Shown: one piece after another, positions 60,851 through 62,902 of the stretch | Layout: each line of letters begins with the position of its first letter | How positions within the stretch are numbered: the stretch's first letter is position 1 | NCBI RefSeq assembly: GCF_001586785.1 | Contig: NZ_LUFH02000015.1 | Location: 1 to 64,000, forward strand | Length of the DNA: 64,000 nt | Origin: Sphaerospermopsis aphanizomenoides BCCUSP55 | GTDB lineage: Bacteria; Cyanobacteriota; Cyanobacteriia; Cyanobacteriales; Nostocaceae | Direction of reading: 5' to 3' | The notes under the pieces: generated by a model | What the model was told of the DNA's origin: nothing | The model's database searches: none | Seen by the model: the letters and a program-made list of their open reading frames with translations, nothing else | Made by a program: the position numbers and the translations under genes

Positions 60851-62902
60851 TTAACTCCACTTAGCAGAACAAGCAATACGAAAACCATGATTTAAATCTC
60901 TACTAGCTGCTGGATAATTGACGCGATAAGCAGAACGGCAGTAGACTGGGCGGTAAGACCAAGAACCCCCGCGCAATACACGACGAGGGTGACTATCACT
61001 ACCACTCAATCGCGCACTGCCATTCGTTGGCGCACCTATGTAAGTATTATACCATCCATCTTCGCACCACTCCCAGACTAACCCATGCATATCGTGTAAA
61101 CCGAAAGCATTAGCTGGAAAAAATCCCACATTAGTTGTTTCTTTGCGGTAAATACCTTTTGAACCATTAGCATAAACATATTCACCATTGTAATTTGCTA
61201 AATCAGTGCTAATAGTATTACCAAAATAAAAAGGTGTAGTTGTACCTGCACGACAAGCATATTCCCATTCAGATTCACTGGGTAAACGATACAATTTACC
61301 TGTTTTTCGTGATAATCTGGCGCAAAATTCCTGTGCTTCATGCCATGATATCTGTTCTACAGGTCGGTTAGCACCTTTGAAATGTGATGGGTCTGGATAC
61401 AAATCAATTTTAATTTTTGGTAAATTAGAAACTGCTTGCCATTGTGCTTGGGTGATGGGATATTTTCCTAGTAAAAAAGGTTGAATAGTAACTTGATGTT
61501 GAGGACTTCCCTTATCTGCACTTTCTATTTCATTTTCTGTTGAACCCATTAAAAACGTACCACTAGGAATGGCAACTAATTCTAAAACTATGCCATTTTC
61601 TAAATCTTCTATAAACAACTCTACTGTTTTTTTACTGCGCTGAATTACCCAAGTTGTTCCCAAGCCCAAAAATCCAGGTTTAGAAATTAATTGTGCTGTT
61701 TCAAATTCAAAAGGTTGAGTTTGAATAATAGATAAAGATTGTGGTTGAGAAACTACTTTATTTGCTGTTTTGGGTGGTTGTTGAGATCGGGATTTGTGTA
61801 TTGTCCTGTTAACAGAGTTTTGGGAGGATTTTGTAGAAATTGATGGCTGAGTTTGATGTAGGTTTTGTGATGTTTGTAACTGAGAATTATACTCTCGATA
61901 GGTTTGTAAAACTGCTTGCCTAATTTCCTGTGCTTCTTGTTCCGATAAACCTAAATCCAGTCTTTTCGTCTCCAACCTTTTTAACATCACAGGAGAAAAT
62001 TGTCCGTTACCTTGTTTAGCTAGAGTCGCTGCTTCTTGATAATATAGATTTCTAGCTGGAGGGACTATAGCTTGAGGTGATAGAATTGCCGTAGGCAGAG
62101 AAGGATTGAGTTTTCTCAAATCTTCTAAAGCTGCTTGAGCATTTTGATAACGGAAGCCATGATGACGACGCACCATTTTTGTTAAAAATGCAGCTAAATT
62201 AGCACTTACCTGTGCTTCCTGTTGCCAGGATAATTCTGCTGTTTGTGGATCTTCTTCAATATTTTGAGGTCGTAACCCTGTTAAAGCTTGAATAGCAGTT
62301 ATTCCCAAGGCGTAAATATCACTAGCAAAAACTGTTTTACCCCTCACTTGTTCTGTTGGCATATAACCAATAGTACCTGCCATAATTGAAGTTTGCAGAC
62401 TACCACTACTATTGAGAATTTGAGAAGCAAGTTCCTTGACTATGCCAAAGTCAATTAAACAAACTTTCCCATCTTGCTGTCTGCGAATCAGATTTTGCGG
62501 TTTGATATCGCGGTGAATAACCTGTTGTTGGTGAACAAAAGCTAAAACTTCTAAAACATCCTGCAATAATTTGATGACATATCCTTCACTGAGTCGTTTA
62601 CCAGGAAGAATTTCTTTGTCTAAACATTGTCCATCAATAAATTCTTGCACAATATAAAATTTTTTGTTTTCCTCAAAGAAGGCCAGTAAGTGAGGAATTT
62701 GGGAATGTGTACCCAATATTTCTAAAATTCTCGCTTCCTTCTCAAAGAAATCTGCACGGACGGTATTGTAGTGTTGAGGTAAAAGTTCTTTCACCACACA
62801 TATAGCTTTACTTGGTTTTTGGGTATCTATAGCTTTATAGGTAATGCCAAAACCGCCATTTCCTAATGCTGCGATAATCTCGTAACGTCCAGCCAGCCGC
62901 AT
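60851..62902 (-). CDS. Ser/Thr protein kinase fused to formylglycine-generating-enzyme-like domain
   Basis: The 683-residue protein starts with a Hanks kinase domain (about 5-275): G-N-G-G-F-G loop, K38 in V-V-K-E-L, catalytic H130-R-D-I-K-P-Q-N and D151-F-G. A linker with S-Q-P-P-K-T-A-N follows. The C-terminal FGE/SUMF1-like domain (about 425-683) has G-T-F-L-M-G-S-T-E-N-E, L-P-S-E-S-E-W-E-Y-A-C-R-A-G and G-L-V-W-E-W-C-E-D-G-W-Y. It ends R-G-G-S-W..C-R-S-A-Y-R..G-F-R-I-A-C. The kinase is complete, so it should be active. The FGE domain is more likely a binding fold than an enzyme. Its C-terminus resembles variable regions of diversity-generating retroelements. Confidence 0.9.
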   Translation of the reverse strand: MRLAGRYEIIAALGNGGFGITYKAIDTQKPSKAICVVKELLPQHYNTVRADFFEKEARILEILGTHSQIPHLLAFFEENKKFYIVQEFIDGQCLDKEILPGKRLSEGYVIKLLQDVLEVLAFVHQQQVIHRDIKPQNLIRRQQDGKVCLIDFGIVKELASQILNSSGSLQTSIMAGTIGYMPTEQVRGKTVFASDIYALGITAIQALTGLRPQNIEEDPQTAELSWQQEAQVSANLAAFLTKMVRRHHGFRYQNAQAALEDLRKLNPSLPTAILSPQAIVPPARNLYYQEAATLAKQGNGQFSPVMLKRLETKRLDLGLSEQEAQEIRQAVLQTYREYNSQLQTSQNLHQTQPSISTKSSQNSVNRTIHKSRSQQPPKTANKVVSQPQSLSIIQTQPFEFETAQLISKPGFLGLGTTWVIQRSKKTVELFIEDLENGIVLELVAIPSGTFLMGSTENEIESADKGSPQHQVTIQPFLLGKYPITQAQWQAVSNLPKIKIDLYPDPSHFKGANRPVEQISWHEAQEFCARLSRKTGKLYRLPSESEWEYACRAGTTTPFYFGNTISTDLANYNGEYVYANGSKGIYRKETTNVGFFPANAFGLHDMHGLVWEWCEDGWYNTYIGAPTNGSARLSGSDSHPRRVLRGGSWSYRPVYCRSAYRVNYPAASRDLNHGFRIACSAKWS

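Follow-up and report, generated by a model that had tools for sequence, protein, structure and literature searches.

The window analysed here, a 64,000-nucleotide stretch of the Sphaerospermopsis aphanizomenoides BCCUSP55 genome, carries near its end a minus-strand gene (60851..62902) encoding a 683-residue protein that joins an N-terminal Ser/Thr kinase to a C-terminal domain of the formylglycine-generating enzyme (FGE) type, a C-type lectin fold. The kinase domain (residues 7-256; 62135..62884, minus strand) has all the marks of a Hanks-type enzyme, namely the glycine loop (GNGGFG), the HRDxKPxN motif (as HRDIKPQN) and DFG. The FGE-sulfatase domain (residues 441-677; 60872..61582, minus strand) matches Pfam PF03781 at E 8.3e-50, and its fold is supported, by sequence, by this match and by PDB entry 2y3c (E 3.2e-23). 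The PDB relatives include human FGE chains and 2y3c itself, variable protein 1 of Treponema denticola, which we take to be TvpA, a variable protein of a diversity-generating retroelement (DGR). That chain has the FGE-type fold and aligns at its C-terminus with the loop described below; unlike the window protein, it has no kinase part. The earlier note on this DNA was right that the end of the kinase-FGE protein is laid out like a DGR variable region (VR): its C-terminus reads GGSW-SYRPVYCRSAYRVNYPAASRDLNH-GFR-IACSAKWS, as in the VRs of DGR target proteins. The VR-equivalent loop is SYRPVYCRSAYRVNYPAASRDLNH (residues 649-672; 60887..60958, minus strand), for which no template was found in the genome. 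The C-terminal tail and stop codon (60851..60877, minus strand), where the DGR targets of this genome carry the hexamer AGGACT, lack that element.

The 6.1 Mb assembly contains four reverse transcriptase (RT) matches (Pfam RVT_1), all on contigs other than that of the window, and a scan of the window for templates under the A-rule (differences only at template adenines) was empty, in agreement with the note's statement that neither an RT nor a template lies there. Both a DGR-type RT and Avd are nevertheless present in the genome: two of the RTs, on C225 and C14, contain the motif GLPIGNLTSQ, presumably the mark of DGR-type RTs, and each is adjoined by an Avd gene scoring above the NCBIfam cut-off (NF033474). 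Three templates (TRs) were found, on C225, C39 and C17. The C225 template differs from the VR of the neighbouring variable protein gene at 17 adenines and no other base in 70 bp, and from that of a remote kinase-FGE gene on C27 at 19 adenines and no other base in 90 bp. The C39 template shows 14, 14 and 16 adenine mismatches to the VRs on C39, C14 and C182, respectively, and the C17 template 10 to a caspase-FGE gene, again with no others. In longer alignments, the six template-fitting VRs show 16-22 adenine and 1-2 non-adenine mismatches. The genome's DGR templates thus fit six FGE genes other than the window gene, including a kinase-FGE gene of the same architecture; the window C-terminus shares with DGR variable regions both its fold and its position.

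The DGR loci themselves are arranged in several ways. The C225 cassette (L008:9601-13108) consists of an FGE variable protein gene, Avd and the DGR-type RT, with the template lying downstream of the last. C14 (L009:13957-18493) and C39 (L060:1-1244) are probably one DGR divided between the ends of two contigs: Avd is cut off by the edge of C14, and by eye its start seems to come after the variable protein gene on C39. The third gene fitted by the C39 template, on C182, encodes a kinase-FGE protein. On C17 (L061:115-2249), the caspase-FGE gene is followed, about 200 bp downstream, by a template of its own. No RVT_1 match lies on this contig, and the pair would need an RT in trans; in the part of PMC10907252 available, trans diversification is considered for the DGRs of Thiohalocapsa PB-PSB1. 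C53 (L062:3396-6326) carries an FGE gene with AGGACT and a strong excess of NNC codons. Its A-rule pattern matched only C53 itself genome-wide, and no template for it was found in the assembly.

For the window loop, an 87-bp A-rule pattern allowing up to three mismatches, run against the whole genome, likewise matched only the window itself; the same kind of search, started from C14, did recover the C39 template. Aligned with the known templates, the window VR has 19 non-adenine mismatches to that of C225 (over about 105 positions, with 3 gap positions), 20 to that of C17 (over about 105 positions, with 4 gap positions) and, in a partial match, 10 in 64 positions to that of C39. The corresponding counts are 25, 27 and 12 for the FGE gene on C165, which is without a template, and 17, 19 and 11 for the target-like gene on C53, so that mismatch counts alone cannot tell the window gene from C53. 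A missing template is by itself weak evidence, because the assembly lies in 254 contigs and C53 also lacks one. Within this draft assembly, then, no template was found that differs from the window loop only at its adenines. The search of the genome that the earlier note had proposed, for a template and a DGR RT, came out half one way and half the other: both exist, and none was found for the window gene.

What does separate C53 from the window gene is the end of the VR. AGGACT stands near the stop codon in 6/6 template-confirmed VRs of the genome and in C53, and in 0/3 of the other FGE genes (the window gene, C165 and C183); no IMH-like element follows the VR of the window gene. Where the VRs read AGGACT the templates read AGCACT, the C17 template being read as far as AGCAC. 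This one-base difference between VR and TR ends (AGGACT against AGCAC(T); L008, L009, L012, L060, L061 and L063) resembles that between IMH and IMH*. By eye, a pyrimidine-rich stretch and then a hairpin with a T run follow most VRs. A longer version of the AGGACT motif, allowing one mismatch, occurs at six places in the genome, at the ends of the FGE genes on C14, C27, C39, C53, C182 and C225, and nowhere on C66; the reversed control gave 0 matches. C17 is absent from this set, its spacing being one base longer by eye. The longer motif is present in 9/40 genomes searched. Two observations count against reading the absence of AGGACT as a sign of a fixed loop: the exact hexamer occurs in only 9/16 TR-confirmed genes of other genomes, and it stands, perhaps by chance, before the stop codon of L100, one of the orthologues of the window gene introduced below.

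Codon usage was compared with the excess of NNC codons expected from AAC-rich templates, after correcting the expectation for amino-acid composition. Six FGE genes of the genome show a strong excess (13-16 observed against 3.8-4.6 expected), C17 shows a moderate one (9 against 3.9, P=0.009), and neither C165 nor C183 shows a significant one. The earlier note had pointed out that many codons of the window loop are such as adenine mutagenesis would give. They can indeed be derived arithmetically from AAC, AAT or AAA, but as a trace of mutagenesis they do not stand out (7 NNC codons against 4.6 expected, P=0.16). A codon fossil in the loop was considered, as the raw NNC counts looked raised, and was dropped once the correction left them non-significant. 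Among the orthologues, P is 0.02-0.07 for L097-L099, 0.38 for L070 and 0.99 for L100; the surplus in the first three, which are closely related, is perhaps a faint fossil of diversification.

We compared the loop among five orthologues, from Anabaena catenula (L097), A. lutea (L098), Trichormus sp. NMC-1 (L099), a Nostocales MAG (L100) and genome G031 (L070, of which only residues 456-683 match the window protein); the loop alignment itself was numbered by a 687-codon open frame, 4 higher than the residues 649-672 given above. In G031 the orthologue (L197:7640-8353) is a 238-codon frame with no kinase open reading frame seen adjoining it, and is apparently truncated. The first 12 loop residues, GGSWSYRPVYCRSAYR, are identical in the window gene and all five orthologues amid synonymous drift, and the second 12 vary at a moderate rate. 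A. catenula, A. lutea and Trichormus NMC-1 have the same loop throughout (24/24 residues). Across the 15 orthologue pairs, identity is 0.835 in the loop against 0.823 in the core, compared with 0.473 against 0.742 across 19 pairs of TR-confirmed genes, in which the loop falls below the core in 19/19. The loop is also below the core in 122/122 pairs with one TR-confirmed gene and in 305/328 other pairs. Pairs were compared only at ≥70% core identity and ≥150 aligned core residues, and they share sequences and hence are not independent. Split by loop halves, identity is 1.00 and 0.61 among the orthologues and 0.57 and 0.22 among TR-confirmed pairs (the last value from the 15/19 pairs of equal length). 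Against a fixed loop, the second half lies below the core in 12/15 orthologue pairs; it outpaces the core (61% against 82%) yet changes far more slowly than in DGR targets (22%).

The kind of substitution, on the whole, favours a fixed loop. When the window gene is set against four of the orthologues, pN/pS ranges over 0.11-0.28 (loop) and 0.20-0.28 (core); pS is higher in the loop than in the core in 4/4 comparisons and pN in 3/4, the latter counting against a fixed loop. Third positions make up 17/29 variable positions in the six orthologous loops and 1/100 differences in six TR-sharing pairs. From species to species, the differences in the window loop are thus mostly synonymous, or amino-acid replacements that accrue slowly, and this between-species comparison gave no hypervariability at template-adenine codons. 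The note's central proposal, a VR at this very C-terminus, is not supported: the change is of this kind, no template found fits, and AGGACT is missing.

The genomes that carry the orthologues, in which draft assembly may have missed genes, differ in their DGR equipment. No RVT_1 match was found in that of A. catenula, and A. lutea has a single one, without the DGR-type motif. The Nostocales MAG has one RT with a group-II-type motif and one further RVT_1 match. In Trichormus NMC-1 (L193) and G031 (L190) one RT each carries the DGR-type motif, which speaks against a fixed loop; typing there covers only part of their several RVT_1 matches. The neighbourhood of G031's DGR-type RT was considered as the site of a template and rejected, as the best stretch there has 10 non-adenine mismatches in 70 to G031's own orthologue. 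The loci of L097, L098, L099, L100 and G031 all have a downstream gene whose start is alike among them and which is, by eye, TPR-like. Its motif was sought in the window and at 12 further loci of the window gene's genome and was found at none, so that orthology rests on trees and similarity.

A tree of the kinase and FGE core (IQ-TREE, VR excluded, 26 sequences, midpoint root) joins the window group (100) to C27 and L069 at a node with bootstrap 87, and the whole falls within a clade (100) of kinase-FGE proteins whose loops vary. An FGE-only tree was built from 123/125 FGE sequences, after two that were duplicate or too short had dropped out. It recovers the window group at 0.999, but here L174 and L124 adjoin that group (0.81) and C27's neighbours come in at 0.44, which leaves C27 less clearly its sister. 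A second conserved kinase-FGE lineage comprises C165 (L064:2222-4117) and seven relatives (L142, L147, L155, L159, L160, L171 and L173), whose loops are alike (six identical), with no AGGACT and no codon excess.

We conclude, at a probability of roughly 0.87, that the window gene encodes a Hanks-type kinase-FGE protein of the DGR variable-protein family that is not a DGR target at present and whose loop evolves like that of an ordinary protein. The protein is best read as a non-diversified, probably retired variable protein of DGR type. Its place among kinase-FGE proteins whose loops vary suggests that its ancestor was a DGR target, which would then have lost its target site, after which a useful loop variant would have become fixed; the FGE-type C-lectin domain is most likely a module for recognising a ligand or substrate. 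We give an even chance to the full account, in which the window gene is a variable protein retired through loss of the target site and fixation of the loop by selection, C27 still matches a template, and the C165 lineage is a second, separate retirement.

An alternative that we regard as tenable, if rather doubtful, is that this kinase-FGE protein was never a target, its C-terminus following the ordinary FGE/C-lectin pattern and DGRs having been recruited to paralogues such as C27. It would account for the want of any clear surviving DGR signature and for the existence of other conserved FGE lineages (the C165 type, eight sequences). The nesting of the window group among proteins with varied loops argues against it, as does the AGGACT that L100 retains at the expected place, possibly by chance; that diversification was lost along the branch of the window group is the simpler account, though the reverse may also hold. 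It is very improbable that the loop is a live VR with its template in a stretch of the genome missing from the assembly: family and position are right, DGR machinery is available in trans, C53 is a target-like gene equally without a template in this assembly and the second loop half is less conserved than the core, but the first half is invariant across six genes despite synonymous drift, AGGACT is missing, the NNC excess is not significant and the assembly is listed as 99.96% complete. A catalytically active FGE fused to a kinase is a very unlikely reading. The strong Pfam match and the human FGE chains among its relatives speak for it; of the two active-site cysteine positions of FGE, the first aligns with Tyr in the window protein and the second with Cys, and the aligned human chain itself has Ser at the first.

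The window protein has close counterparts. The kinase-FGE protein of C27 (L012:1040-3241), in the same genome, shares the architecture and is 54% identical to the window protein over residues 3-679; unlike the window gene, it fits the C225 template and has AGGACT. Cyanobacterial DGR variable proteins with an N-terminal Ser/Thr kinase and a C-terminal CLec domain, and their paralogues, are described in the available part of PMC7517822; they have the domain architecture of the window gene, with paralogues dispersed around DGRs. The window gene differs from them in matching no template, in lacking AGGACT and in keeping its loop largely conserved. From this architecture, the likeliest role of the window kinase is one in which its C-lectin domain would recognise one particular ligand or substrate, a signalling role that matches proposals in the same portion of that paper. 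The DGR targets of Thiohalocapsa PB-PSB1, as far as the accessible part of PMC10907252 goes, similarly carry CLec sensors (of FGE subtype in DGR 6) on signalling proteins; they are reported there as diversified in natural samples, in contrast to the largely conserved window loop.

Applied together, the template A-rule, AGGACT, the NNC excess and the kind of substitution tell DGR targets and fixed paralogues apart. The available part of PMC7517822 also proposes that favoured DGR variants may become conserved, and the window gene and C27 form a same-genome pair for testing this published idea of later fixation of DGR-made variants. If there were indeed two separate retirements, DGRs would be a kind of workshop from which new receptor specificities emerge and become fixed.
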